Positions 21,197 to 34,423 of a stretch of 64,000 nt of DNA are shown here, piece by piece. Below the pieces are notes generated by a model. It was not told where the DNA came from and made no database searches. It saw nothing but the letters and a program-made list of their open reading frames with translations. Location: contig NZ_CP009455.1 of assembly GCF_000759535.1 (NCBI RefSeq), positions 3,844,001-3,908,000 on the forward strand. Direction: 5' to 3'. How positions within the stretch are numbered: position 1 is the stretch's first letter; each line of letters begins with the position of its first letter. This DNA is from Pseudomonas cremoricolorata (GTDB taxonomy: Bacteria; Pseudomonadota; Gammaproteobacteria; Pseudomonadales; Pseudomonadaceae). The translations under genes were made by a program, and so were the position numbers.

Positions 21197-22369
21197 ATGC
21201 TTGCATTGACGTATCAGGGGGCTGGAGAGGTGAAAGTGCTGTCGGTGCCCGACCCGGTCATCGAACAGGATGACGATGTGCTGGTACGGGTCAGACTCAG
21301 CGGCATCTGCGGATCGGACCTGCATCTGTACCACGACAAGATTCCCAGCGTGCGCAAGGGCGATATCCTCGGTCACGAATTCATGGGGACGGTGGTCAAG
21401 GTCGGCAGCGCAGTGACGGCGGTCGCCGAGGGCGACCGCGTGGTGGTGCCGTTCATCATTGCCTGTGGCGAGTGCTTTTTCTGCAAGCAAGAACAATACG
21501 CCGCCTGCGAAACCACTAATCCCACCTCAGCGGTAATCTCCGGCGAGCACGCTACCCGCAGCGGCGCAGCGCTGTTTGGCTACGGACACCTGTACGGTGG
21601 CGTACCGGGCGGCCAGGCCGAATACGTACGCGTGCCAAAAGGCAACATAAATGCCTTCAAAGTGCCAGACGACATCAGTGATGAAGCCGCGTTGCTGCTC
21701 TCGGACACCCTGCCCACCGCCTGGCAGGCGATCAAGAACGCCAAGGTCGACAAGGGCAGTTCAGTTGCGATCTTCGGGGCCGGTCCGGTAGGCCTGCTGG
21801 CTGCGGAAATAGCGCAGATGCTAGGCGCCACGCAGATTTTCCTGGTCGATGAGTACAGTTACCGCCTGAAGTTCGCGGCTGAGACCTATGGCGTTATTCC
21901 CGTGAATTTCTACCACGATAACGACCCCGCGCGGACCATCGTCAACGCCACTGTCGACCAGCGCGGCGTCGATGCCGTGATTGACGCGGTTGGATTCGAG
22001 GCCAGCGGCACCACGGTCGAAGCAGTAATGAACATGTTCGGGTTCGAAGGCAGCAGCGGTAAAGCCTTGCGCCAGTGCATCGAAGCCGTACGGCGCGGCG
22101 GGGTGGTCAGCGTGGCGGGCATGTACTCAGGGCTGATGCACAGTTTGCAACTGGGCGCTGCATTCGACAAAGGCTTGTCGTTCCACATGGGCAAGACCCA
22201 TGTGCATGCCTACCTGCCCGAACTCTGTAAGCATCTGCAGGCAGGCAGCCTGCGTCCAGAGCGACTGATCACCCATCGGCTATCTCTGAACGAGGCAGTA
22301 CAAGGCTACGAAATGTACGACGAAAAACGCCCAGGATGCTGCAAGGTCATCCTCACACTGGATAGCTGA
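21197..22369 (+). CDS. Zinc-dependent alcohol dehydrogenase (FdhA-like)
   Basis: Encodes 390 residues of the medium-chain dehydrogenase family. Catalytic zinc ligands are seen in GICGSDLHLYHD and GHEFMGTV, the structural zinc loop is CGECFFCKQEQYAAC, and the NAD-binding fold is marked by VAIFGAGPVGLLAAEIAQ. The length and the insert around GGVPGGQAEYVRVP are closest to glutathione-independent formaldehyde-type dehydrogenases of pseudomonads, but substrate choice cannot be read from sequence. AAGGAGAAGCACC precedes the ATG. It is transcribed alone. Confidence 0.85.
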   Translation: MLALTYQGAGEVKVLSVPDPVIEQDDDVLVRVRLSGICGSDLHLYHDKIPSVRKGDILGHEFMGTVVKVGSAVTAVAEGDRVVVPFIIACGECFFCKQEQYAACETTNPTSAVISGEHATRSGAALFGYGHLYGGVPGGQAEYVRVPKGNINAFKVPDDISDEAALLLSDTLPTAWQAIKNAKVDKGSSVAIFGAGPVGLLAAEIAQMLGATQIFLVDEYSYRLKFAAETYGVIPVNFYHDNDPARTIVNATVDQRGVDAVIDAVGFEASGTTVEAVMNMFGFEGSSGKALRQCIEAVRRGGVVSVAGMYSGLMHSLQLGAAFDKGLSFHMGKTHVHAYLPELCKHLQAGSLRPERLITHRLSLNEAVQGYEMYDEKRPGCCKVILTLDS

Positions 22370-22509
22370 CTACCTACAACGATTACCCGGCGGCTCGCTT
22401 GGCCAACTGCCAACGGGCCGCTCGCGCCAGTACGTCGATAATCTTTTGAATTTTCCTGCCCCCGATCACTCAACCCTTAGTCATCCATGGAGAAGAGGAG
22501 GGCCTTTCG

Positions 22510-22833
22510 ATGCCAGCTCCACAGCTTTACATCATCGATTACCGCCTGCACGACCAACTGCGCAGCTTCATTATCCGTCTGGAGCGCATGGACAATGCCG
22601 AAGCCTGGCATTGGGCCAGTTGCGATGCCGGTATCGGCATCATTCCCAAGTTCGGACGCGAAAAGATCAGGAAGGTCAGTCGGCCCATGGCCGAGCGCTA
22701 CGGCATCACCGATGTACGCTGGAGGCTATCTGGCACTCGGGAAAACCCAGTCGGCCCGACAGGGCAGACCCAGCACGGACGCAGCGGTGGTGAAGATGTG
22801 TCGAATGCCGGTGAAACAGCGGTGATCGCCTGA
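22510..22833 (+). CDS. Small pseudomonad protein, DUF6555-like
   Basis: Encodes 107 residues. The core (FIIRLERMDNAEAWHWASC, then IGIIPKFGREKI and SRPMAERYGITDVRW) matches a small conserved Pseudomonas family that I recall as DUF6555; the label is from memory. About 30 polar residues after the core may be a variable tail. GAGGAGG stands eight bases before the ATG. No function is known. A strong terminator follows at 22896. Confidence 0.65.
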   Translation: MPAPQLYIIDYRLHDQLRSFIIRLERMDNAEAWHWASCDAGIGIIPKFGREKIRKVSRPMAERYGITDVRWRLSGTRENPVGPTGQTQHGRSGGEDVSNAGETAVIA

Positions 22834-22895
22834 ACCAGAAGTCTGCGCAACAAACCGCAGCAGTACCCCAATTCAGATGATCTATCAACAACCCT

Positions 22896-22947
22896 TAAGT
22901 TAACTCGACTAAATATTCATTTAGTCGAGTTAACTTATTGTTTTTAT
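22896..22947 (+). terminator. Long perfect rho-independent terminator
   Basis: A 19-bp perfect stem (arms 22896-22914 and 22919-22937, containing GTTAACTCGACTAAAT) closes a four-base loop ATTC and is followed by TTGTTTTTATT. It is strikingly AT-rich for this genome. It ends the DUF6555-like gene and would also work partly in reverse. Confidence 0.85.
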
Positions 22948-23078
22948 TATGGTTTAAGAAGTAGGGCGCTCAAGCCCTGATTCTGACCAGACTTTCATCA
23001 CCCATCAACCTCATGGCTTGCCGGCCGTAGAACGGTTCGGCCACTATGGGCTCCTCACTCAGCGTAAGGAACCTTCCC

Positions 23079-23483
23079 ATGCCCATCTACCTGGCCGCCG
23101 AGAGTGAATGGCTCCCCGGCACCGAACTGGTCATCGAAGGCCCCGCAGCCCAAGGCCCGTATGCAGCCGTATTCGAAGATGACGGTGAAACTGGCTACTT
23201 CTACGCCCTGGACAGCAGCAAAGACGACAACCCTATTCAGGACGCCTTGCACGTGTATAACGTGCAAGACATTTCCGACCGCGAAAAAGCCTCGACGGTA
23301 CGCATCGGCTGGTCCCAGGACCACCTCAAAGCCGTTCTGCTGATCAACGACTATCCCCACGCCGTATTCGATTTCCACAGCAAGCGCGGCTACTGCCGCA
23401 GCAGCTTTCCACGGGCGACCGGTAATGGGTGGTCTAAAGAAGGCCATGACTGGAGCGACGAAGCCTTGCAATTGTTCGCCTGA
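23079..23483 (+). CDS. DUF2251-like protein
   Basis: Encodes 134 residues beginning MPIYLAAESEWLPG; AAGGAA lies nine bases before this ATG, and an earlier ATG at 23046 lacks a site. GPYAAVFEDDGETGYFYALD and AVLLINDYPHAVFDF resemble the DUF2251 family of immunity-like or stress-linked small proteins. No signal peptide or membrane segment is seen. The function is unknown. A 10-bp GC hairpin follows its stop (23498-23529). Confidence 0.65.
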   Translation: MPIYLAAESEWLPGTELVIEGPAAQGPYAAVFEDDGETGYFYALDSSKDDNPIQDALHVYNVQDISDREKASTVRIGWSQDHLKAVLLINDYPHAVFDFHSKRGYCRSSFPRATGNGWSKEGHDWSDEALQLFA

Positions 23484-23497
23484 ACCCCCGTCAAACA

Positions 23498-23529
23498 GCG
23501 CCGGGCGCCACCAGCCCAACGCCCGGCGC
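23498..23529. terminator. GC-rich hairpin after the DUF2251-like gene
   Basis: Perfect arms GCGCCGGGCG (23498-23507) and CGCCCGGCGC (23520-23529) with a 12-base loop. No T-run follows, so it may be a weak terminator or a message-stabilising stem in front of the next gene. Confidence 0.45.
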
Positions 23530-23552
23530 ACTGATTTCAAGGCAACCCACGT

Positions 23553-23918
23553 ATGGATACGGACATCAAACGCCAGCTCCTGAACCTGGAACGCGAACTG
23601 CTTCAACCGCAAACCCGCCGCGACCCACGCAAACTCGATCAACTCCTGGCTGACACTTTCATCGAGTTCACAGCCAGCGGATCGACCTGCAACAAACCCC
23701 AAGCCATCAACGCGCTACACAGCGAAACCCCCAACGAACGCATTCTTGAAAACTTCCACCTGCAAGTGCTTACGCCTGACGTTGCCGTTGCGACGTATCG
23801 CTGTGTTCAGCGCGATGAGCACGGTGCGATGGTGACGTCGCTGCGCAGTTCGGTTTGGCGGTTGGGGGTGGTCGGGTGGCAGATGGTGTTTCATCAGGGG
23901 ACGCGGGTTGATCGATGA
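23553..23918 (+). CDS. DUF4440 / NTF2-like protein
   Basis: Encodes 121 residues with the cystatin/NTF2-like fold of DUF4440 proteins: LLNLERELL, LDQLLADTFIEFTASG, LQVLTPDVAVATYRC and the closing VWRLGVVGWQMVFHQGTRV. No catalytic residues can be assigned. The last gene before the dif site; codons near its 3' end are unusually G-rich. Confidence 0.7.
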   Translation: MDTDIKRQLLNLERELLQPQTRRDPRKLDQLLADTFIEFTASGSTCNKPQAINALHSETPNERILENFHLQVLTPDVAVATYRCVQRDEHGAMVTSLRSSVWRLGVVGWQMVFHQGTRVDR

Positions 23919-23992
23919 TGGTTTGGGGGGATGGGATTGCGAGCTGGGGGTGTTTCGATGTCTGGGAGTTGGGTGAGTTGGGATTATGTGAG

Positions 23993-24020
23993 GGTGCGCA
24001 TAATGTGTATTATGTTAAAT
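23993..24020 (+). other. dif: Chromosome dimer resolution site dif
   Basis: Twenty-eight bases match E. coli dif except for one. The XerC arm is GGTGCGCATAA (23993-24003), the central region TGTGTA (24004-24009; TGTATA in E. coli), and the XerD arm TTATGTTAAAT (24010-24020), both arms identical to E. coli. XerCD recombines this site under FtsK control to split chromosome dimers, so the window probably contains the replication terminus. The sequence just to the left is strongly G-rich on the plus strand. A dif-like site used by an integrating element is the alternative; I saw no second copy in the window. Confidence 0.88.
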
Positions 24021-24139
24021 ATGGTGTAAGTGTCAGACTCTTCGTGCTCGATCGTTAATGGCCTTCTGCCCAGCAGGCCATGTGTAACCCCCACTGGTTA
24101 ATCGGAAAACATTCCACACTAACCAGTTAGGTAGCTTAC
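24021..24139. other. Non-coding stretch next to dif with inverted repeats
   Basis: Holds two inverted repeats: ATGGCCT / AGGCCAT (24058-24064 and 24075-24081) and ACTGGTTA / TAACCAGT (24093-24100 and 24120-24127). They may be remnants of insertion-sequence ends. No gene is seen. Confidence 0.4.
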
Positions 24140-24280
24140 ATGACGACAGCGTTGGCCGAGCAGGACATCGGCCGTTACCTCATGCTGCCGTACAACTGGT
24201 CAGGGCCACATCAGCACAACGGCTTCGTGCGACCGGCGTTGGCGGAAGAAAAACTCAATTCTGTGTCCGGGAATTGTTGA
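24140..24280 (+). pseudogene. IS3-family transposase C-terminal remnant
   Basis: A 46-codon frame whose end, DIGRYLMLPYNWSGPHQHNG followed by ALAEEKLNSVSGNC, resembles the closing residues of IS3-family OrfB transposases (YN..RPH..NG...P..AEE.L). Only this tail survives; the catalytic DDE region is absent. It lies about 120 bases right of dif. Confidence 0.55.
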
Positions 24281-24547
24281 GCACTACATTGCTCCGTCAC
24301 TGCGAGAATTTCAGCGCAGCATCAGGAGACAATCGGTAAGACCGCAGGTTGGAGGACGCACTGCAAGCATTGGCGGAAGCGCTACGCATTCATTTGGCTA
24401 CCAATCCCGACTAGATCACCCTCACCTCCTGTCTGCATTAGCAAATCAACTGAGCTCAAAACCTGATTCCGCTCCCACTCAATGCCGGCGTCAAAGTGCG
24501 CTCGACCTGCTTCGAGTGGGCTACGGAAAGTAGAGCCTATTGATTCA
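24281..24547. other. Unassigned debris between two gene remnants
   Basis: On the plus strand a short frame DRRLEDALQALAEALRIHL ending NPD and a stop (24414) looks like the helical tail of a lost gene, but is too short to name. No other gene is supported. Confidence 0.3.
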
Positions 24548-24733
24548 TCATTCGCTGGAACGACCAATCGCAACCATCGCCAGGAAGTCGGACTCACCAA
24601 CGATCCGGATCTCCTGCCCAGCCTCATTCAGTTCCTCGGCTTTCAGATGCTTGCTGCTTTTCTCTTTGCCCCCAAGCCGACTGATATCTTGACCACCGAC
24701 GACCAGTATCGTGGTCTTTCGGCTCACCGTGTT
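24548..24733 (-). pseudogene. C-terminal BRCT-domain fragment
   Basis: The minus strand encodes VSRKTTILVVGGQDISRLGG, KSSKHLKAEELNEAG and IRIVGESDFLAM before a stop at 24548. This is the second half of a BRCT domain (strand, Lys-rich helix, then the GESDF end) as found at the C-terminus of bacterial exonuclease-like or ligase-like proteins. Homology begins abruptly at about 24733. Everything upstream of it is missing and is replaced by the beginning of a helicase fragment on the other strand. Confidence 0.6.
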
Positions 24734-24748
24734 GGAAGAGTGGTTTTG

Positions 24749-25894
24749 GGATGCCCACCCTCTGTAGCCAGCCTGCGACAAAGGCTCGGAAGATCGGGAC
24801 GGCGTGCGGGCGAGCCTGCCATCCTGAGAGGCTACTGCCGGGAGCGCCTGCTCACGGATCAGTCCAATCTTTCAGATCAGTTGCGCGAAGTGTTGGTACA
24901 AACCGTTGCCATGATTCGCTTGCTGGTGGCCGGTTGGTTTGAGCCCCCTCGTTCGCAGGGAATGCATGCCTCCACGCTGGTTCAGCAATGCCTATCGACC
25001 ATTGCCCAAATGGGAGGTGCCAGCGCTGCCCAACTGTGGAACGATCTCATTGCCAGCGGCAGCTTCGCGAGCGTAACGAAGGGCGATCTGATGTTGCTGG
25101 TCAAAGGTATGGGTGAAAAGGAGCTGATTGTCCAAGACAGTTCTGGTCTGCTCCTGCCAGGTGAGCTGGGTGAGCGCCTGATCAATCACTATGAGTTCAA
25201 CACCGCTTTTACCAGCGATGAAGAGTTCCGACTGCTCAGAGATGGCAAGCTACTGGGGTCTCTAGCCGTCAGTCGACCACTCTCCAAGGGCCAGAGGATC
25301 ATCTTTGGTGGTAGACGCTGGCAGGTTCAGGATGTAGATCTTGAGGCCAAAGTCATCGTGGTCACCCCAACGCGCGGCGGCGAGCCACCCCAGTTTGATG
25401 GCTTGGGTGCTCAGATCCATGACCGCGTTCGAATGGAGATGCGGTGTGTTCTTTCGGAAACATCACCCTGCCCTTTCCTGGACAAGCAGGCCCAATCGTT
25501 GCTCCAGGAAGCGCGGCAAACATTTCATGCCCTAGGGCTCGGGGAAAAGTCGATCGTGGGATCGGCTAGCGCCAGCCATCTTGTAACCTGGCAAGGCGAC
25601 TACACCAATGATGCCTTGGCTTTGCTGCTGAGGCATGCGGGCATCCAGTGTGAGAACTCGGGACTTTTTCTGGACATCGCATTTGGTGCGGAAGATTCAC
25701 TGAAAGCATTGCATACCGTTGCTCAGCTAGATATCTCTAACCTAGAGCCCATTCTCGAGAACGTGGAAAACATGATCCGGGAGAAATGGGACTGGGCTCT
25801 TCCTCGACCGCTTCTGATGAGGTCGTTTGCCTCAAGTCACTTAGACCTGCAAGGGGCGGTGGAAATAGCTCGAAAAATCACTGAAAACCAGTAG
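24749..25894 (+). pseudogene. Lhr-like DEAD/DEAH helicase, N-terminal half deleted
   Basis: The frame is open from 24482, but only from about CPPSVASLRQRLGRSGRR (24752 on) does it look like protein; the front part is the complement of the BRCT fragment. QRLGRSGRR is helicase motif VI. The remaining 380 residues match the winged-helix and C-terminal parts of Lhr-Core-type helicases (LVAGWFEPP, LMLLVKGMGEKELIV, FIFGGRRW-like IIFGGRRWQV, RPLLMRSF). Motifs I to V (Walker A, DEAD/DEAH) are absent, so it cannot be an active helicase. Codon and GC content are lower than in the flanks. Confidence 0.7.
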
Positions 25895-25943
25895 CACTGG
25901 AGTGCGCTTAGGCGTGTCCAGTAGCAATAGCGTTTCTCGTACT

Positions 25944-26213
25944 TTACTGGAGACAGCTGCATAGCACTGCTATGTCGACGCTTGGGTTATAAAATATCTC
26001 GATGTAATCGAAAATATCACTTCGGGTTTCGCTAAGTGTTGCGTAGATCCTTCGTCGGATTCGCTCCCGCTTCAAAAGCTGGAAAAAGCTCTCGGCTACG
26101 GCATTGTCATGGCAGTTTCCCCGTCGGCTCATGCTGCTGATCACATTGTTGGCCTTGAGGGAGCTTTGCCAATCTGAGCTACCGAACTCACTGCCTTGCT
26201 CTGAGTGAATCAT
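25944..26213 (-). pseudogene. IS3-family OrfB transposase fragment
   Basis: Eighty-nine codons open with MIHSEQGSEFGSSDW and continue with SSMSRRGNCHDNAVAESFF and IEIFYNP. This is the second D and final E region of an IS3-family DDE transposase. Homology stops after FYNP (about 25983), where unrelated sequence runs to a stop, and the 5' half is missing at 26213. Confidence 0.8.
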
Positions 26214-26300
26214 TTGCTACTGTGGCTTGCGTCGCCACACGGTAAGCGTCTGGCCGACACACCTTGCGGATAGCAAAACTTTTGCCTTCCGCTTGGGTGA

Positions 26301-26328
26301 TGGAGCCTACTTACCCGGGTAGGCTCCA
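26301..26328. terminator. Hairpin after the SnoaL-like gene
   Basis: Ten-base perfect arms TGGAGCCTAC (26301-26310) and GTAGGCTCCA (26319-26328) lie 14 bases beyond the stop of the minus-strand gene ending at 26342. There is no T-run, so the terminator role is inferred from position. Confidence 0.45.
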
Positions 26329-26341
26329 CCCTCTTGATATC

Positions 26342-26752
26342 CTACGATTCGACATCGCTATCCAGTAGCGTCGTTCCGTAGGAGTTGTCCACCACGCATA
26401 GCCACTTTTCTGAAAATTGACGAAACACGTAGGTCGCCCTACGCAAAATCTCAGTTTTCACTCCCGTCTTGTCCGTGGCTTGTAGCCGGGTCTCCATGAT
26501 AACGAGAGCTACATCACCCCCTTGTATAACCTGCATCTCCCCCTGTGTGACAACGATGCTGTTATTGAAATGCTCCGCAATGGCGACAAATGCTCGGCGG
26601 ATGCTTTCTTTGCCTGCAACGGTCAATCCTGGTCTGACCACGAGACTGGCATCATCCGCATAAAACTTCATTAGCTCGTCGAAGTCTTCGGCTGTGATGG
26701 CTCGATCAGCGGCCTCGATTGTCTCTTTGAGGGCTCGGGTAAGTGCGTCCAT
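26342..26752 (-). CDS. SnoaL-like / ketosteroid-isomerase-fold protein
   Basis: Encodes 136 residues of the NTF2-like superfamily: AADRAITAEDFDELMKFYADD at the start (read in two pieces), LVVRPGLTVAGKESIRRAF, and the closing WLCVVDNSYGTTLL. Such proteins isomerise or bind small hydrophobic molecules; no catalytic residue can be assigned. It is an intact gene surrounded by broken mobile elements, so it may have come in with them. A hairpin with a T-run on the minus strand just upstream (26788-26814) would stop transcripts entering from the right. Confidence 0.7.
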   Translation of the reverse strand: MDALTRALKETIEAADRAITAEDFDELMKFYADDASLVVRPGLTVAGKESIRRAFVAIAEHFNNSIVVTQGEMQVIQGGDVALVIMETRLQATDKTGVKTEILRRATYVFRQFSEKWLCVVDNSYGTTLLDSDVES

Positions 26753-26785
26753 TCCTGCGCTCCTGAAGTAGCCTCAGAGGAGGAA

Positions 26786-26814
26786 TGAAAAACCCCGCTG
26801 CTGAGGCGGGGTTT
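26786..26814 (-). terminator. Rho-independent terminator, minus strand
   Basis: Minus-strand AAACCCCGC (26814-26806) pairs with GCGGGGTTT (26798-26790) and is followed by further T residues (five in all). It lies between the IS66 remnant and the SnoaL-like gene and would end leftward transcripts. Confidence 0.75.
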
Positions 26815-26960
26815 GGCAAATCGTGCGCAGTCCCACCGCCTAGGTGAAGGTGGTAATAATTGAATTTGCGCACAGGAAACGGTAACTGTTCATGGCATGA
26901 ATCTGCCGCATAAAGACAAGAAAATCAACTGATACGATGCTGTGTTGACACCGTTCACCA

Positions 26961-27899
26961 CTATGCTGGTCGCCACTGATCGGGTAACAATTGATCAATC
27001 TCACTGGCTCGCTGTGTCGGTAGGCGCGTCAGCACATCTTTGAGGTAGGCATACGGATCATGCCCATTCATACGCGCCGATTGGATCAAACTCATGATTG
27101 CAGCCGCCCGTTTACCACTGCGCAGCGACCCAGCGAACAGCCAGTTCAAGCGACCGAGTGCCCATGGCCGTATCTGATTCTCGACTTGGTTGTTGTCGAT
27201 GGGCACAGCCCCATCCTCCAGTTAGCGCGTCAGCGCTACCCAGCGTTTCAGGCTGTAATCGAGGGCCTTGGCCGTGGCTGATCCGTTGGGCACCAGATTG
27301 CGCTGGGCCAACATCCAGTCATGCAGTGTTTTGCTGATCGGTACCGCCAGTTCCTGACGTATTCGCCAACGGTCTTCGCTGCTCATATCCCGAGCCTGGC
27401 GTTCAACCTCGTACAAACCGCCAATCGAGTGCAGCGCCTGTTCGGCCAGCTGACTTTTGCTCGCGACATGCAGATCGAAAAACTTGCGACGCGCGTGAGC
27501 CATGTAGCCGATTTCAGTCATGCCCTGCTCAAAACCGGCTTTGTATCCGGCGAAGTCATCGCAGACCAACTTGCCGTTCCAGTCGCCCAGGAAATTGCGC
27601 GCATGTTCGCCCGCACGGCTTGGACTGAAGTCGTATACCACGGCTTTGAGCGCCGAAAACGGCGTCGTGCTGTACGCCCAGACATAGGCTCGGTGAGTTT
27701 TCTTCTCGCCTGGGGCAAGCATTTGCACCGGTGTTTCATCGGCGTGGATCACGCCTTGGTTCAGCACCGCTTCACGCAGTGCATCGACCAGCGGCTGGAG
27801 CCGCACGCCGGTTTGTCCGACCCACTGGGCCAAGGTCGAGCGAGCAATTGCCAGCCCGGCGCGACCAAAGATCTTTTCCTGCCGGTACAGCGGCATGTG
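26961..27899 (-). pseudogene. IS66-family transposase (tnpC), truncated and with a nonsense codon
   Basis: Reads from MPLYRQEKIFGRAGLAIAR through IHADETPVQML, VCDDFAGYKAGFEQG and HARRKFFDLH to RWVALTR, then a TAA stop (27224-27222), and resumes in the same frame with LEDGAVPIDNNQVENQIRP to DQLLPDQWRPA. Intact IS66 proteins have Tyr where the stop stands (TAC to TAA), so one base change broke it. The N-terminal third is gone: at 27897-27900 the frame runs into an unrelated IS5-type end. tnpA and tnpB are absent. Confidence 0.85.
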
Positions 27900-27920
27900 C
27901 TGACTTGATCGGAGAATCCT
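27897..27920 (-). repeat. Orphan IS5-type terminal repeat
   Basis: The 24 bases here are the inverted copy of 31743-31766, the left end of the deleted IS5 element: GGATTCTCCGATCAAGTC plus AGCACA read on the minus strand. Only the terminal sequence remains, joined directly to the broken IS66 gene, which marks a recombination or deletion joint. Confidence 0.7.
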
Positions 27921-28001
27921 TAGGCTTCCATGCCATAAAGGAAGACCTCATCACTCCCGGCATATGCCAGGTGGCTTGGGTCTTCCGGTCCATCTACGAC
28001 A

Positions 28002-28310
28002 TCAGTCCTTAGAGATGATGGCGAGCGCCTCATAAAGGATCTCCAGTGCGCGGTATACCAGGTCCGCGGTGACGATGCATGGTGGTACGACATGGAGTTG
28101 GCTGCGTTCTCCACAACCTTCGATTCGCGCATGGCATCGATCGTCGCGACGATGGATGCCATGGCCATTGGGTGCCCCCAATAGGTCAAGCCACTTGGGA
28201 AGAATGCCGTGTCGAAATGCTTGCAGATCTCGTCGGAAATGACGATACCGCCCGCAGGCACTTAACCGGATTTCACGGCCTTGGCGACGGTAATCAGCGA
28301 CCAGTGTCCA
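28002..28310 (-). pseudogene. Class III aminotransferase remnant
   Basis: The minus strand reads LITVAKAVKSG, then a TAA stop (28264-28262) where Tyr is usual, then VPAGGIVISDEICKHFD and FPSGLTYWGHPMAMASIVAT up to KVVENA (about 28103). Here it shifts frame and jumps to SQLHVVPPCIVTADLVYRA and the C-terminus AIISKD (stop 28002). This is a PLP-dependent class III omega-aminotransferase with the N-terminal two thirds missing, one nonsense codon, and an internal deletion of roughly 100-130 residues. The PLP lysine VAK survives. Confidence 0.7.
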
Positions 28311-28352
28311 TTCTACGTCCGTCAAGCAACTGGGGTAGCGCTGTTTAGGCAT
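28310..28352 (-). pseudogene. IS5-family transposase N-terminal stub
   Basis: Begins MPKQRYPSCLTDVEWTLVA, the usual start of IS5-family OrfA proteins (MPKQRYPSDLTD...W), and fuses after about 18 codons to the aminotransferase remnant. Confidence 0.55.
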
Positions 28353-28365
28353 GGCGCGATGCTGT

Positions 28366-28413
28366 GTAGACAAGGGGCCAGCAGCTTACTTTATTTTGTC
28401 TACGTGCCCCTTC
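28366..28413. mobile_element. Inverted repeats at the stub's left end
   Basis: GTAGACAA (28366-28373) and TTGTCTAC (28396-28403) form an inverted repeat, with GGGGC and GCCCC next to them. A CTAG overlapping the autotransporter stop (28413-28416 region) fits the YTAR target of IS5-group elements. The insertion seems to have landed exactly at the end of the autotransporter gene without damaging it. Confidence 0.35.
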
Positions 28414-31400
28414 CTAGAACGTCCATGCGGCCGTGGCTGATGCGCTCTCATCATGAAAGCGCTGGCCTATTTCTCCTGTGTATCGCAAGCCTATGGAAAA
28501 GGATGGCGTCAGGTCCAAGCTAGCGCTAAGCGCGAACTGGGCCGTATCTTTCTGCACAGGCAAACCAGAGATGTTGACGAAGCTTCCTTGGGACCGCAGT
28601 TTCAGTCGGGACTCTGTAGTTTGTTTGGTAAGGGCATGTTGCAGCCCTGCGCTGCCATTCAGGCGGAGGGTCATGCCATGGGTAAGAGGATGGATGGCGT
28701 TTGCGCGTGCACCGAGTCGGCCAGAGGTCATGTCCATGCGGCTTTTTTTGCCACTGATGGCGAATAGGTTTTCCCTCTCGGAAAAGGCTTCGGTTTCAAG
28801 ATGGGTGTAGTTGAGCCCGACGAAGGGTTCTAGAGTCCAGAAGTTGAAGTTGATGGGCTTGGACAGCTCGGCAAAGACCTGACGGATGCTGCCGCCGTAA
28901 CTCCCTTTAAGCCGCGTGGTGCCATTCTTATGAGTTACATCGCGTTTACTGTCGATTTCATGCCGGTTATAGCCCGCTCCGAGGCGTAGTGTAAAGCTGT
29001 CCAACTGTTTGCTGGCATAGGCGGCAAGGCTGTAGGTTTCGATATCGGCCGAAGCACTCTGCGTGGAGAGCGAGGCAGAACTACTTTGGTAGCTAGCGGC
29101 GATACCGGCTATCAAACCGCTGACTTCGTCCTGCTGATCAAGCCCCCAGATGACCCCGTGAGTCGAACGATTGAGCTTGGCCGCATCATCTTGGCGATTT
29201 TGTTTTCCTTTAGAGTCGAAGACATATCCCCAGGCGCCCAGAGCGCGCGGATTCTGCTCTGTTTCATAAATACGATCAAGCGTTGCGTTGCGCAAGTAGC
29301 TTGAATTCTGCAACAGCGCACTCTTAAGCGAGGCGTGCAGCTCTCCGGGCATGGATTGCATGATTTGCTTGAACTCGTCACTTGAGAGCCCGATCAAGGC
29401 ATTGGTTTCTTTTTCAGCCCAGGTCAGAGGCACCGCTGTCGAAGCGTCCGGGGGTGCGTTGACAGAGGCCTCGTTCAGAAGCTGGGTAGCCAGGGCTTTT
29501 TCGTTTGCGTTTTCCACTAGTGCTTGGGGGCTGACATCATTACGCACCAAGTTTAGGTTCACTTGGTTTGTTTCATAAGTCAGGCTAGGCGTGAGGAAGG
29601 CCAGATTGGATGTGACGTTGGCAAATTGGCCGCTGACACCTTTTTGCGCCTGGATAATAGCCAGATTGGTATTGGGCTTGTAATCGCCTGTTTGCGCCTG
29701 GACATCGACCCGACCACCTCGTAGGTCAACAGAACCGGCCACGTCCAACTGGTCGGCACGCCCAGTCGCATCGACCTCGACGCGGTAAATCGACCCGGGC
29801 CTGAAAGTTAGGTTTTGGGTTATGCGTAAGGTACCGATCGAATTGCCAGGGGCGATGATCCCGCCTTTGTTGACGGTGACCGAGCCAACCTCGCCGATGC
29901 CTTGCAATTGAGCATCGGAGTCGACGTAAAGCATTGCGTTGCTCAGGGAGCCATTGGCCCTTAGCATGCCTTTGTTGATATCGATGCGTCCGGCAAAGTC
30001 GCTGATACCCGTCAGGTTGAGTTGGCCTGCACCGTCTTTTTTTATGTTACCGTCACCTCTGATGTTGCTGCTAAAGGTAATGTTATCGTTGCGGTTGAAG
30101 ATCAGCGTGCCATTATTGATGATATTGCTCGCCACTGAGCCTTTTGTCCCGCCATTACCGACTTGCAAGGTGCCCTGATTTATCTCAATGCCGCCTCTGA
30201 AGGTGTTGTTACCTGTGAGGATTAGCGTTCCGCTGCCATTTTTGATCAAACTGCCAGGGCCGCCAATATCCTCCTTCCAGGTATCGGTCTGAGAAAAGCC
30301 GGCCAGATCCATATCCGACGCTGGATTCTGGTTGACTGTGAAGTCCTCATAAAAATAGGTGGGGCCGCTAAAAGCGCGGGGCAGGTTGATTAGGCCCCAG
30401 TTGGCATCAGGGTTATTGGTGTCGAAGGTCCAGCCTGCCAGCGAGTTGCTGGGGTAAGCCGTGCTAGCCAGAATCTGCTGCCATTCGGGTGATTTCAAAT
30501 AGGGGAAGCGAAATCGCAACAATGCGCCGGATTGTTGCGGAATATGTTTAGGGGTGAGTACTACAGCAGGGCGTTTGAACATTTGGTTGTAGTAGCCGAT
30601 GCTGTAGTTTTCGTTGGCTTGAGTCTTGGCCAAGGGCGAGTCTTGAGCCTCAAGACAGCTACGCAAAGAGCCTGAGCAAAGATTTGATGCTTCTGCCTGT
30701 GTCCGAATATCCTTGCTCAGTTCAAAAAAGGTCATTGCCAGCGTGTCATCTGCCAGTATTTTTGACAGGTAGAAATAGTTACCAATACGGGAAGCGATAG
30801 TATCGGTAGGAAAGTGCGCGTCCAAGACGACACGGCTTTCGCCGTACTGAATGGCACGGGAAAGGATTTCGTTACCACGCTCTGGGAATATCAGGCTCAT
30901 GGGCAGTGCCGTTGCGTAACCGTCCCAAGTGTGGCCGCTGGGGTAGGATGAGCCATTTATGGATAAGTAGTCTTTTATATATCTTCCGTTCTCCAGGACA
31001 TCTCTGGGGCGACCACGAAGAAACTTATCTTTTAATATAAAATCTGCGGTTCTTTCCCTTTTCTTGTCGGCATCATACGAGTAGGCTGAAAGTTCATATA
31101 GGTCTACCAGCCTGTCGTAAGAGTCGAAATTTGAAAGATCTAGCGGCGTGTGGGGTGTTTCTGTCGGAGCAAGCGATCCTAGTGCTGACAGCGTCATGGT
31201 CGATAGCCTATAAGCGGTATTTTGGGCCCTGTCGCTGTTGGCTAGCTTGTATCTGGCGCCACTGTCTTGTGAATAAGCGATGGACCCTTCTCGGTCAAGG
31301 TCTGCTGCTTCTGACCCTGGCAGTGGATAGCTAGCGATGATGTTGCTTTGGAGTTCCTCGAACCAGCTATATCTTTTAGAGTCAATCAGCGCTTCAGCGT

Positions 31401-31521
31401 TGTGGGTTTCAATTTCTGCTAATACATCTGTCGCTGGAGCTAACAAGAGGAAAAACGCGTGCTTTACCGCTTTGTATTTGCCAGGCGGTCTAATATTTGA
31501 GGCTTTAACTGTTGATGGCAT
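28414..31521 (-). CDS. Autotransporter with class A acid phosphatase passenger
   Basis: Encodes 1035 residues with GGAAG before the ATG. A signal peptide (about 1-35) is followed by a PAP2/class A acid phosphatase domain (about 40-260) with the complete signature: K164 to R171-P172 (KDKFLRGRP), PSGH (194-197) and SR..H..D (S229, R230, H236, D240). Residues about 430-640 are beta-helix repeats with autotransporter GSLIKNGSGTLILTGNNTF and GTLQVGNGG motifs. Residues about 760-1035 are the type V barrel, ending SATAAWTF. The enzyme should be shown on, or released from, the cell surface and free phosphate or alcohols from organic phosphates. The gene is clearly AT-richer than its neighbours and is flanked by mobile debris, so it was probably acquired. 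Confidence 0.88.
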   Translation of the reverse strand: MPSTVKASNIRPPGKYKAVKHAFFLLLAPATDVLAEIETHNAEALIDSKRYSWFEELQSNIIASYPLPGSEAADLDREGSIAYSQDSGARYKLANSDRAQNTAYRLSTMTLSALGSLAPTETPHTPLDLSNFDSYDRLVDLYELSAYSYDADKKRERTADFILKDKFLRGRPRDVLENGRYIKDYLSINGSSYPSGHTWDGYATALPMSLIFPERGNEILSRAIQYGESRVVLDAHFPTDTIASRIGNYFYLSKILADDTLAMTFFELSKDIRTQAEASNLCSGSLRSCLEAQDSPLAKTQANENYSIGYYNQMFKRPAVVLTPKHIPQQSGALLRFRFPYLKSPEWQQILASTAYPSNSLAGWTFDTNNPDANWGLINLPRAFSGPTYFYEDFTVNQNPASDMDLAGFSQTDTWKEDIGGPGSLIKNGSGTLILTGNNTFRGGIEINQGTLQVGNGGTKGSVASNIINNGTLIFNRNDNITFSSNIRGDGNIKKDGAGQLNLTGISDFAGRIDINKGMLRANGSLSNAMLYVDSDAQLQGIGEVGSVTVNKGGIIAPGNSIGTLRITQNLTFRPGSIYRVEVDATGRADQLDVAGSVDLRGGRVDVQAQTGDYKPNTNLAIIQAQKGVSGQFANVTSNLAFLTPSLTYETNQVNLNLVRNDVSPQALVENANEKALATQLLNEASVNAPPDASTAVPLTWAEKETNALIGLSSDEFKQIMQSMPGELHASLKSALLQNSSYLRNATLDRIYETEQNPRALGAWGYVFDSKGKQNRQDDAAKLNRSTHGVIWGLDQQDEVSGLIAGIAASYQSSSASLSTQSASADIETYSLAAYASKQLDSFTLRLGAGYNRHEIDSKRDVTHKNGTTRLKGSYGGSIRQVFAELSKPINFNFWTLEPFVGLNYTHLETEAFSERENLFAISGKKSRMDMTSGRLGARANAIHPLTHGMTLRLNGSAGLQHALTKQTTESRLKLRSQGSFVNISGLPVQKDTAQFALSASLDLTPSFSIGLRYTGEIGQRFHDESASATAAWTF

Positions 31522-31741
31522 GATTCTTCCAGAGGTGTATGGATTATTAAGAGGGTGTCATTATTCGGGGCTTTCTTTTCGGTTTTGTTACTGCGCTACT
31601 AATCCGCCAAAAAATATTTCATAAGAATCATTTTGCCGAAAACCTAATTTCCGAATTATTTAGGATTACTCTTATTGAAAGTTTTCTAATTTCATGAACA
31701 TAGGCCGTATTTTGATTTGGCGGTATTTTTCTGTGAAATTA
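31522..31741. other. AT-rich promoter region of the autotransporter
   Basis: About 220 AT-rich bases between the autotransporter ATG and the IS5 end. Several TA-rich -10-like stretches exist on the minus strand, but I cannot choose one; no PhoB box was recognised with certainty. Confidence 0.35.
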
Positions 31742-32296
31742 GGGATTCTCCGATCAAGTCAGCACAGGCCGTCTGACCTGTGCTGAAATAGCCTTCCGTC
31801 CAACTACCCTCTACAAGCCCGCCATTCCATGAGTCAGATGAGATTTTCCGATTTCGAGTACGCCGGTAAGCGCAAGCAAACCCGACGCGAGCGTTTCCTG
31901 GCCGAGATGGGCATGAAGGAAGGCCGGTGATCTGGCAGATTGCGGCTCGTCGGAGCACCCATAAACACTTGAGCAAACGAAGCGTGCTCTACAAGGCCAG
32001 ACGCAAGATCGAGAAGGTCAAAGCGCAGGTGCGAGCGAAAGTCGAACATCCATTCCGTGTGATCAAGCGCCAATTCGGCTATGTGAAAACCCGTTTCCGT
32101 GGCTTGGCCAAGAACACGGCGCAACTGACCACGCTGTTTGCCCTGTCGAATCTGTGGAGGGTGCGCCGGCAATTATTGCCGGCCGCGGGAGAGGTGCACC
32201 CGTGAGGGCAGAAAACCAAGGCTATCCTTGGTTTTCCAATAATCAGCGGCTGAAAATCGGGCTTTCCGGCTGATGGCAACTTGTTCGGAGTTTCCC
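31742..32296 (+). mobile_element. Internally deleted IS5-family element
   Basis: Terminal repeats GGGATTCTCCGATCAAGT (31742-31759) and, inverted at 32279-32296, GGGAAACTCCGAACAAGT agree at 15 of 18 bases and are flanked by TA on both sides (31740-31741, 32297-32298). Inside, a transposase start (MSQMRFSDFEYAGKRKQTRR, 31829) breaks after about 27 codons. A second frame carries only the C-terminus (SVLYKARRKIEKVKAQVRAK, HPFRVIKRQFGYVKTRFRG, to 32205). Most of the DDE domain is missing. The element cannot move by itself but could be moved in trans. Confidence 0.8.
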
Positions 32297-32299
32297 TAG

Positions 32300-32438
32300 G
32301 CTCTGTCTGAAAAGCCCTGATACTTGATGATCCTGCGTTGAAAACAGCCTCGGAATGCTCATTTACAACCAGTAAACTCCGCTTCCTCGGCTGTTTTCGC
32401 CTTGTCTCCCCGGCGTCTCAGAACTTTTCAGACAGAGC
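32300..32438. mobile_element. 139-bp MITE with CTAG target duplication
   Basis: Perfect terminal inverted repeats GCTCTGTCTGAAAAG (32300-32314) and CTTTTCAGACAGAGC (32424-32438), flanked by CTAG on each side (32296-32299 and 32439-32442). Internal arms GAAAACAGCC and GGCTGTTTTC give further fold-back. There is no coding capacity. CTAG fits the YTAR target of IS5-group transposases. It inserted exactly at the right end of the deleted IS5 copy. Confidence 0.85.
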
Positions 32439-32506
32439 CTAGGCACACCATGATTTCACCAGATCGTTCTGGTGACCCGATCTGGATACAAGCAACACCC
32501 AAAGCC

Positions 32507-33025
32507 CTATTTCACCCACTTGAGGCAGGCAAATCCAGTCTCGATTCGCAGCGGCTGAACAGGCTCAATGCTTTCCTGATCGCCAACTTTTTTGATGACG
32601 TTCACGCCACAAAAGTACTGGTCTGGACTGATCGCGGAGAGAAAGCCTTTCCGGTCCTCGCTCCAAGAGCCGTTAACGACGGTATACGTAGCCCCTTTCT
32701 CAGGTGTGAAAGAGAACGGAACCTTGCATGCCATACCTCCGACTGCGCTCTGGTAAGTCATGATCAGCTCTTTATCAACAGCCACTGGGGACTCGACGAA
32801 ACCGCCGCTGCCAAGCAGCGTCGTGTAACCCGCGTAGCACCCCTTGTCATTAAAAGTCATGATATCCAGTCGAGCGTCGCGGTCGTACTTCATACGTACG
32901 GTCGCTGAAGGCTCACCCGGCTGAGGAACAGCGTATTGCTTGCCGTACAGGATCGAATTGCAGCCAGTCATGGCAACGGTTCCTGCCAGCGCCACGCACC
33001 AACCATACTTTTGTAGCTTGTACAT
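32507..33025 (-). CDS. Putative lipoprotein
   Basis: Encodes 172 residues from MYKLQKYGWCVALAG; GGGAGCG lies before this ATG, and the longer reading to 33184 has none. The N-terminus is a lipoprotein signal with the probable lipidated Cys in VAMTGCNS (about residue 23). The mature part contains ATVRMKYDRDARLDIMTFND and a repeated Gly/Val-rich beta pattern with four further cysteines. I do not recognise a named domain. It starts just right of the mobile debris and has normal GC content. Confidence 0.65.
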   Translation of the reverse strand: MYKLQKYGWCVALAGTVAMTGCNSILYGKQYAVPQPGEPSATVRMKYDRDARLDIMTFNDKGCYAGYTTLLGSGGFVESPVAVDKELIMTYQSAVGGMACKVPFSFTPEKGATYTVVNGSWSEDRKGFLSAISPDQYFCGVNVIKKVGDQESIEPVQPLRIETGFACLKWVK

Positions 33026-33208
33026 TGATCGCTCCCTGATTTTCTGGCGGCCCTTGGGCTCGTGGGACTGCCGAACGGCTATCTGATGCGCGTGTGCGCG
33101 GTGAAGTTCCGACATGGCATGCCTGTTAAGCTCTGGAGCAATGCGGCAGAAAACCGAACCCTGGCCTGCCTGGAGCACGGGCAAGAGAAAGCAGATTCAG
33201 CATTATCG

Positions 33209-34423
33209 TCAAATCTCCACCCCCCGCTCCACCCACCAAACCAACGGCAACGTCACCAACAAAACCCCCGCCAACCCCACCACCGCCCAAGCGACCCCTA
33301 CAGCATCCCCAAGCCCACCAAACACCACCGGCGCCACCGCCCCGCCGCCAATGGTGCCGGTATAGAACAGCGCAAAAGCCCGTTCACGCTTGCCCGCCCC
33401 GGCGAGGTCCGGCACTGCGCCATAGAGCACCGACGAGGTGCCGTTGAGCACCACCCCCAGCAATGGCAGCATCACCATCAAGCCTGCATAGGGCAGAAAA
33501 ACTGCGAGCACGATCAGGCTGGCGGTGGTGAGTTCGGTGATCCAGACGGTTTTCATCAGGCCGATGCGGGCGCCGAGGTAGCCGCACAGTAGCTTGCCGA
33601 ACGCGCCGCCGACGAACAGCAGGGTAAGTGCCAGGCCGATGCCGGCGGTGCCGGCGCCTTTGCTCCTGAGCAGGAACGGCAGGAAGGTCAGGAAGCCCAT
33701 GCGGGCTGCGCTGTCCAGGGCGCCGGTGAGGATCAGGGCCCGCAGGCCCCCGAACGAGCCGTGGCCGTTGGCGGTTTTGGGGGCTTTTTGCTGCATGGCC
33801 TGGGTCGCTGCGTGGGAGGGGATCAGCCACCACAGCGCCAGCGCGGCAGCCAGGCCGAGCAGGCCGATCAGCGTCGCGCTGGTGCGCCAGCTGATCACGG
33901 TCAGTAGCAGGCCGACCAATGCGGGAATCAGGGTCTTGCCGATGTCACCAGCGAAGTTGTACTGCGACAGCGCCTGTTTGACCCCGTCGCCGGCCTCGTG
34001 GGTGTCGGTGATGATCGAGGACGCCAGCGGGTGCTGGGTACTGGCCCCCAGGCCGCCCAACAGCAGCGCCACAAGCAGCACCCCTAGCCCGCCGGCCTGT
34101 CCGGCCAGCAGGTACGCCAGGCCGGCCAAGGCAGTACCGCCCACCAGCAGGCGCTCGCGACCCCAGCGCCTGGCGCCGCGGCTGGCCAGCAACTGGAAGC
34201 CGGCCATCATCCCGGAATAGGCGCCGCGCAGCAGGCCGATCTGCGCGTAGCTCAGGGCGAACTGTGATTGCCAGATCGGCAGCAGCACATAGATCACGTC
34301 GGTCAGGCCATCATGCACGGCGTGGGCACCGCACCCGGCGACCAGGGAACGGCGGCGAACCGACACGTCGGCTGCCGGTAAAGCCCTGGGTGACACGGGT
34401 TGTTTCAGTTCATTGGTGGTCAA
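33209..34423 (-). CDS. MFS transporter, fosmidomycin-resistance-like
   Basis: Encodes 404 residues with 12 predicted helices. HAVHDGLTDVIYVLLPIWQ near the start and GLGASTQHPLASSIITDTHE are typical of the FsR-like MFS group of efflux proteins. The tail ends in a short polar segment. The next gene upstream on the same strand is another MFS carrier 31 bases away, so the two may be cotranscribed. The natural substrate is unknown. Confidence 0.8.
   Translation of the reverse strand: MTTNELKQPVSPRALPAADVSVRRRSLVAGCGAHAVHDGLTDVIYVLLPIWQSQFALSYAQIGLLRGAYSGMMAGFQLLASRGARRWGRERLLVGGTALAGLAYLLAGQAGGLGVLLVALLLGGLGASTQHPLASSIITDTHEAGDGVKQALSQYNFAGDIGKTLIPALVGLLLTVISWRTSATLIGLLGLAAALALWWLIPSHAATQAMQQKAPKTANGHGSFGGLRALILTGALDSAARMGFLTFLPFLLRSKGAGTAGIGLALTLLFVGGAFGKLLCGYLGARIGLMKTVWITELTTASLIVLAVFLPYAGLMVMLPLLGVVLNGTSSVLYGAVPDLAGAGKRERAFALFYTGTIGGGAVAPVVFGGLGDAVGVAWAVVGLAGVLLVTLPLVWWVERGVEI

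Follow-up and report, generated by a model that had tools for sequence, protein, structure and literature searches.

At the replication terminus of this Pseudomonas chromosome, a small gene cassette adjoins the dif site; filamentous phages that integrate at dif seem to have left it there, and it seems to be exchanged between species. It lies in a 64-kb window, the whole stretch of DNA analysed here (3,844,001-3,908,000 of a single 4,780,403-bp contig), and is bounded by a palindrome on its left and by dif on its right. The clearer dif-linked mobile structure of the window is this left (XerC-arm) side of dif, at 22.9-24.0 kb, which comprises:

22901..22932, no strand: 32-bp palindrome, TAACTCGACTAAA-TATTCA-TTTAGTCGAGTTA, left boundary of the cassette; its arms extend to 22896-22937
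23046..23483, + strand: cargo gene 1, DUF2251 (PF10008, 2.3e-38); related ORFs in 4 further palindrome-dif cassettes
23553..23918, + strand: cargo gene 2, DUF4440 (PF14534, 8.7e-16); related ORF also in locus L283
23993..24020, + strand: dif site, GGTGCGCATAA (XerC arm)-TGTGTA-TTATGTTAAAT (XerD arm)

The dif site at the replication terminus

The 28-mer that the original prediction had named as dif is present at 23993-24020 on the + strand, with both arms and the TGTGTA centre as claimed; we take its XerC and XerD arms to be identical to those of E. coli dif. The site is 28 bp long with an 11-6-11 architecture and a G+C of 0.32, the XerC and XerD arms flanking the 6-bp centre and the XerD arm being conserved. 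With the centre left free, the arms matched once in the window when up to 3 mismatches were allowed, and never in 100 dinucleotide shuffles (0/100). A search of the whole 4,780,403-bp chromosome found no second copy of the 28-mer; the 21-nt dif core matched once at up to 3 mismatches with 0 matches on the other strand, and its reversed control gave 0 and 0. No convincing gene runs over the site, the flanking called ORFs (at least 80 aa) stopping at 23918 and starting at 24382, and neither RNA families nor tRNA genes were found within the 64-kb window. The exact 28-mer also occurs in 4 genome_contigs records, from P. fulva, P. guariconensis, P. cichorii and Tenebrionibacter. Dif-like cores were found in 98 of the 115 genomes of the relatives set (45 genera, one genome each except Pseudomonas) and in 381 of 398 genus genomes, the source genome being counted in both. 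In the portion available of PMC2731167, the dif of P. aeruginosa PAO1 is given as GATTCGCATAATGTATATTATGTTAAAT. The source genome encodes one XerD above the cut-off, and another strong relative scores 279 bits, which is below that for XerD; recombination of the window dif by XerC/XerD is putative. We conclude that the 28-mer is a genuine, ordinary chromosome-dimer-resolution (dif) site of a Pseudomonas chromosome.

That the window sits at the replication terminus is supported by the distance from the origin, the GC skew, the polarity of KOPS and the single copy of dif. The dnaA gene is at 1,449,162, and its distance to dif is 2.419 Mb or 50.6% of the 4,780,403-bp circle, so that dif lies opposite the origin. 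Within the 400-kb tile around dif, supplemented by 20 spot samples elsewhere, cumulative GC skew reaches its maximum at 3,876,290, only 8.3 kb from dif and in agreement with the turning point predicted there; the median distance between dif and the GC-skew extremum in 161 chromosomes is 7,277 bp according to the available part of PMC2731167. The KOPS-type motif GGGNAGGG, putatively read by the host FtsK, flips its polarity at dif: within 200 kb, 31 forward and 2 reverse copies were counted on the left and 7 forward and 36 reverse on the right, and these candidate FtsK-orienting sequences converge on dif. Genome-wide the motif was counted 374/367 times, versus 150/143 for the reversed control. 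The window alone has 3/1 left of dif and 2/9 right, a number that is unremarkable (15 versus 10.2 expected, reached by 9 of 100 shuffles), the polarity alone being unusual.

The palindrome and the probable exchange of cassettes

The palindrome at 22896-22937 came to light when the 1.3 kb surrounding dif were compared with 298 genomes of the genus. Its general form is TAACTNNACTAAA-N6-TTTAGTNNAGTTA, sharply bounded, and by inspection its arms (TAACTNNACTAAA) are unlike those of dif. Alignment of 41 copies gave a 32-bp element with sharp edges, near-invariant arms and unrelated flanks. At up to 1 mismatch, the motif AACTNNACTAAA-N6-TTTAGTNNAGTT was found in 241 of 398 genus genomes and was absent from 157; the reversed motif gave 0 among the matches listed. 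Under a stricter pattern, 24 of the 115 genomes from 45 genera were positive, all of them Pseudomonas. The outer variable positions pair above shuffles (38/54 versus 26.6 and 33/54 versus 25.1) and the centre avoids pairing (14/54 versus 24.9 shuffled), in a test that is weakened by the kinship of the sequences. Such a pattern would suit a hairpin whose loop stays open, or a two-fold protein site whose spacer has an orientation. A plain intrinsic terminator is unlikely on its own, the stem being A+T-rich and near-invariant in the 41 aligned loci; termination may be a part-function of the palindrome.

The palindrome is found on one side of dif. A stretch of ±4.49 kb around dif was scanned in 110 dif-oriented Pseudomonas loci, which are the source genome, all 69 other dif-bearing genus genomes of the relatives set and 40 further genus genomes. 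The palindrome was on the XerC-arm side in 66 of the 110 loci and on the XerD-arm side in none, versus 1 and 0 for the reversed-motif control. The 40 added genomes were taken in listing order, skipping G258 and G128, in which dif is less than 2.4 kb from a contig end; longer stretches were chosen for G390, G426 and G238 (extra palindromes there), and the scan was still of ±4.49 kb. In the other 44 loci the searched stretch is without a palindrome, an absence that is weak in shorter stretches such as L139, L161, L192, L209, L210 and L259; in G024 the palindrome and dif are on separate contigs. The distance between palindrome and dif ranges from 88 to 3,463 bp and is 0.5-1.45 kb in 60 of the 66 loci. 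Among the 75 palindrome places listed, which stem from 67 of the 241 positive genomes, 74 have a dif listed on the same contig and all 74 are on its XerC side, 64 of them at most 2.6 kb from dif and ten at 5-98 kb; the remaining place, in G324, is without a listed dif.

The segment between palindrome and dif carries cargo that differs between genomes, its ORFs not being the same. In the window it is 1.1 kb long, from the palindrome at 22901-22932 to dif, and both of its genes read towards dif. Cargo families were defined by clustering the longest ORFs and running one or two members per cluster against Pfam, and in the 66 loci they are Cupin_5 (13 loci), an SDR cluster (8) and HxlR (7), followed by DUF2251 (5, the window included), a family of up to 192 aa (5) and DUF4019 (4); a methyltransferase occurs in 2 loci and there are many singletons. 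SDR and HxlR occur together, in 1.32-kb cassettes. PADLOC matched 0 of 10 cargo proteins to defence systems and neither of the two window cargo proteins. A relative, L283 (genome G361), shares the cassette and left flank of the window at 88%.

With dif on its right and the palindrome on its left, the window locus does not have the att at each end that marks an IMEX, nor is the cassette bounded by two sites of one recombinase, as integron-like or pdif modules are. Neither a second dif in the window nor an XerC core at 7 of 8 bases within 80 nt left of the window palindrome was found. The source genome (G000) is without a dif-linked prophage, its sole Zot match being marginal and 1.6 Mb from dif. 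The window cassette is described here as IMEX-derived and not itself an IMEX.

Exchange of cassettes was inferred from comparison at the species level. Among the 66 loci, 96 pairs share the cassette only (at least half of the cassette, with the palindrome-adjoining flank not shared), 12 share the flank only (to within 50 bp of the palindrome, with the cassette not shared), 9 share both and 2,028 share neither. Shared cassettes with different flanks, and swapped cassettes with shared flanks, can be read from the alignments. The sharpest case is L168 and L184, whose cassettes match at 98% over 918 bp, while the 9-kb stretches (about 4.5 kb each side) showed no further match of at least 80 bp. 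In the 12 flank-only pairs, which are not independent and come from two clades (L137, L149, L171, L262, L276 and L285; L162, L255 and L260), identity at variable bases is 0.92 in the left arm, 0.50 in the centre and 0.38 in the right arm, versus 0.48, 0.48 and 0.52 in the 2,028 pairs sharing neither. The 96 cassette-only pairs, which are mostly old, show little arm linkage (0.53/0.58/0.59). The left arm tracks the flank, and the centre and right arm track the cargo; therefore the breakpoints lie inside the palindrome. L164 and L184 have the same left arm but a different centre and right arm, with a flank at 83%; their shared flank stops 45 and 83 bp short of the palindrome, outside the 50-bp filter. 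With L164/L184 counted, there are three clades, two with three cassettes each and one with two, which implies a minimum of about five replacements and no more; exchange events are few.

Filamentous phages and the probable origin of the cassettes

The exact palindrome motif was found in 34 IMG/VR viral-contig stretches, 22 of the 34 contigs being 6-10 kb long, and where annotated these contigs are of filamentous-phage type. In 31 of the 34 (all except L215, L223 and L228), a long ORF of 364-452 aa reads towards a palindrome, whose position relative to the ORF end varies from 16 nt inside to 212 nt past it; this gene encodes a pIV secretin in L199 and L213, and Zot in L217. Nine of the 34 have a dif with an intact XerD arm 80-84 nt from the palindrome (L217, L219, L220, L222, L225, L226, L231, L238 and L241), a spacing that is an empty cargo slot, and six have opposed dif-like sites 90 nt apart (L213, L221, L223, L227, L232 and L239). 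In INPHARED, two palindrome variants were compared, so that other variants may be missed, and these matched at full length only weakly, in two Lactobacillus phage records.

Genome G058 has three tandem 9.63-kb phages on the XerC side of dif, encoding a G2P-type Rep, an HTH protein, Zot and a pIV secretin; no integrase match was found among 8 proteins of this phage run against PHROGs. Each copy has its own palindrome and a 329-aa gene adjoining att. The repeat unit starts inside dif, and the two inner junctions keep 11/11 and 9/11 XerC-arm bases, the other half being degenerate. An XerC arm kept at the junctions together with a regenerated dif, as in an IMEX, was found for this array only. Past the array, a fourth palindrome bounds an SDR/HxlR cassette with 79% identity over 1,222 columns to that of L178. 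Such an order, with the resident cassette followed by the phage, the new cassette and dif, is what an intermediate would be expected to show. Where G058, G238 and G426 have extra palindromes, they have phage copies too.

A second conserved hairpin, GTGGGGGTGCTGTTACACCCCCAC (GTGGGGGTG...CACCCCCAC), is present in 29 of the 34 viral stretches (L212-L245) and lies upstream of a G2P-type rep in L213 and L217. It was found in 2 of the 110 dif loci, both with phage copies (L278 and L280), and was not found in the cassettes. This hairpin is a better candidate than the palindrome for the replication origin of dif-type Pseudomonas filamentous phages, and its presence in the phage stretches weakens the case for the palindrome as origin.

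We consider it probable, at about 0.6, that filamentous phages integrate at dif through XerCD and deliver cargo, and that a crossover inside the palindrome swaps this cargo. The identity of dif, the one-sided palindrome with its phage context and the XerC-arm junctions of one tandem prophage can be read directly from the sequence; catalysis of integration by XerCD, the deletion step, recognition of the palindrome and the crossover mechanism are putative. Filamentous phages of the CTXphi/IMEX kind, with no integrase of their own, would integrate at dif by means of the host XerCD. Given a phage order of morphogenesis genes, palindrome, cargo gene or nothing, and attP, integration would regenerate dif and bring a palindrome and new cargo immediately beside its XerC arm. 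A crossover inside the palindrome, between the resident and the incoming copy, would delete the old cargo and the phage body, and the product would be the old flank and left arm followed by the centre and right arm, the new cargo and dif. Over many rounds, much of the genus would come to have a single slot at dif in which cargo can be exchanged. The crossover may be the work of RecA-type recombination, or its breakpoints may fall by chance at a short conserved palindrome. A natural form of recombinase-mediated cassette exchange is a possible but tentative reading, in which the palindrome and dif would bound a one-gene slot, phages with both sites would swap the gene, and a dedicated, putative crossover activity would act on the palindrome.

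It is rather doubtful that the palindrome is only a packaging signal or terminator hairpin, with no exchange by design, phage bodies decaying, the dif-adjoining part happening to survive and ordinary homologous recombination at the terminus producing the mosaicism. The packaging hairpin of Ff phages sits behind a gene, as the palindrome does behind the long gene in 31 of 34 viral contigs (secretin or Zot where annotated); the covariation of the outer variable pairs (38/54 versus 26.6, 33/54 versus 25.1) is hairpin-like as well, and since 29 of 34 phage stretches have a second hairpin, the origin may lie elsewhere than in the palindrome. Decay does not explain, however, why the left boundary falls at the palindrome in unrelated loci (L137/L166, L149/L166 and L168/L184), or why in 12 pairs the shared flanks stop at most about 50 bp from the palindrome with different cargo behind. 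The small size of the cassettes (0.5-1.45 kb in 60 of 66 loci) and the pair L168/L184, 98% identical in the cassette with no other match of at least 80 bp in about 4.5 kb on either side, would suit self-mobile minimal satellites of filamentous phages, made up of the palindrome as origin or packaging signal, cargo and attP, packaged by a helper and integrating at dif alone. We regard such satellites as improbable: integration of a circle would leave an XerC half-site left of the palindrome, whereas an XerC core at 7/8 bases within 80 nt upstream was found in 2 of 66 loci and at 8/8 in none, and none of the cassettes showed the phages' second conserved hairpin.

It is very improbable that the palindrome is a chromosomal terminus element, bound by a protein to organise the terminus and copied by phages. 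The nearly invariant inner arms and the occurrence in 241 of 398 genus genomes, mostly as one copy near dif among the places listed, are consistent with such an element, but the palindrome is missing in 157 of the 398 genomes and keeps to one side of dif, its extra copies go with phage copies (G058, G238 and G426), and it is present in viral contigs.

Comparison with known systems is made here with the portions available of the papers cited. Already known are dif, IMEX phages and accessory genes beside att (PMC2731167, PMC3089051, PMC7307601, PMC5357621). The window dif shares with dif/XerCD of Proteobacteria the 11-6-11 structure, conserved XerD arm, low G+C, single copy, skew and KOPS (criteria from PMC2731167), and differs in its TGTGTA centre only. 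As in the CTXphi-type IMEX phages of Vibrio cholerae, the phage is filamentous and integrase-less with its prophage at dif (PMC3089051, PMC5357621), and the opposed dif-like sites resemble CTXphi attP1/attP2, about 90 nt apart (PMC3089051); in Pseudomonas, however, a palindrome present in much of the genus separates the phage body from the cargo, and cargo and palindrome persist without the phage. Integrating filamentous phages carry accessory genes around a core (PMC7307601). The UPphi phages of Enterobacteriales are likewise in tandem at dif with variable accessory ORFs adjoining it, but their accessory genes are inside prophages and the available text describes no boundary palindrome for them (PMC7307601). 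The pdif modules of Acinetobacter plasmids are also gene modules bounded by Xer sites (PMC6449649, PMC7399989), whereas the Pseudomonas cassette has an unrelated palindrome at one boundary. In the open-licence PMC literature, neither a palindrome shared by phages and phage-free chromosomes nor an exchange of palindrome-dif cargo appeared in a title or abstract opening among the matches listed.

As a dif site this one is routine. Its cassette suggests that integrase-less filamentous phages use the terminus of many Pseudomonas chromosomes as a port, leaving single genes there. The identifiable frame of palindrome, gene and dif makes phage-borne cargo findable after loss of the phage, and cargo exchange by dif-integrated filamentous phages becomes directly testable in laboratory Pseudomonas.

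Palindromes in other settings and the right side of dif

In G010 and G050, two palindromes enclose islands of 37-38 kb without an evident filamentous phage. These islands (L195-L198) have a lower G+C, and their last genes, by the far palindrome, resemble TniA/TniB/TniQ by eye; from this reading of ORFs by eye, the islands may be Tn7/Tn5053-like. Extra palindrome copies were also found in G390, G399, G409, G442 and G267. Three Pseudomonas megaplasmids (L286-L288) carry the palindrome. The first has a degenerate dif-like site 0.79 kb off, with the palindrome on its XerC side, and the megaplasmid of P. mandelii has one 0.53 kb off, with the palindrome on its XerD side; in the third no dif-like site was found within 3 kb of the palindrome at the threshold used.

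On the XerD side, dif is variable too, without a palindrome, and shared cassettes often lose their match at +22 to +36 of dif (L137/L149, L166/L178). The original prediction had taken dif both as a mark of the terminus and as the reason for the mobile-element debris on its right; the former is supported, and the latter may hold. The following features are located there:

24071..32442, no strand: extra DNA with lower G+C, absent from L283 (G361); left edge uncertain within 24021-24070
24482-25894, + strand: fragment like the C-terminal half of SngC/BrxH helicases
25944-26213, - strand: IS3 fragment
27222-27896, - strand: IS66 fragment
28414-31521, - strand: PAP2-domain autotransporter

The window and L283 are alike up to dif and weakly so on to about 24070 (34 identities in 51 columns), the latter similarity being no better than the best of 200 shuffles, and homology resumes at 32443. 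About 8.4 kb was gained in the source genome or lost in G361, starting 0-50 bp right of dif. No repeats of at least 9 nt joining the ends of this stretch were found between 24041-24200 and 32331-32480. With no such repeats in the parts compared, and no second dif in the window, insertion of the 8.4-kb stretch by XerCD is not shown. The stretch 22000-34000 of the window matches mainly Pseudomonas plasmids (66 of 69 records), which, together with the Pseudomonas records holding the exact 28-mer, points to a Pseudomonas as the source. The ORF at 24482-25894 is close to SngC (PADLOC 2.9e-126, profile positions 342-719 of 720) and is a fragment of a defence system. The autotransporter at 28414-31521 is 1035 aa long, and its passenger has a PAP2 phosphatase domain and a passenger-associated repeat.
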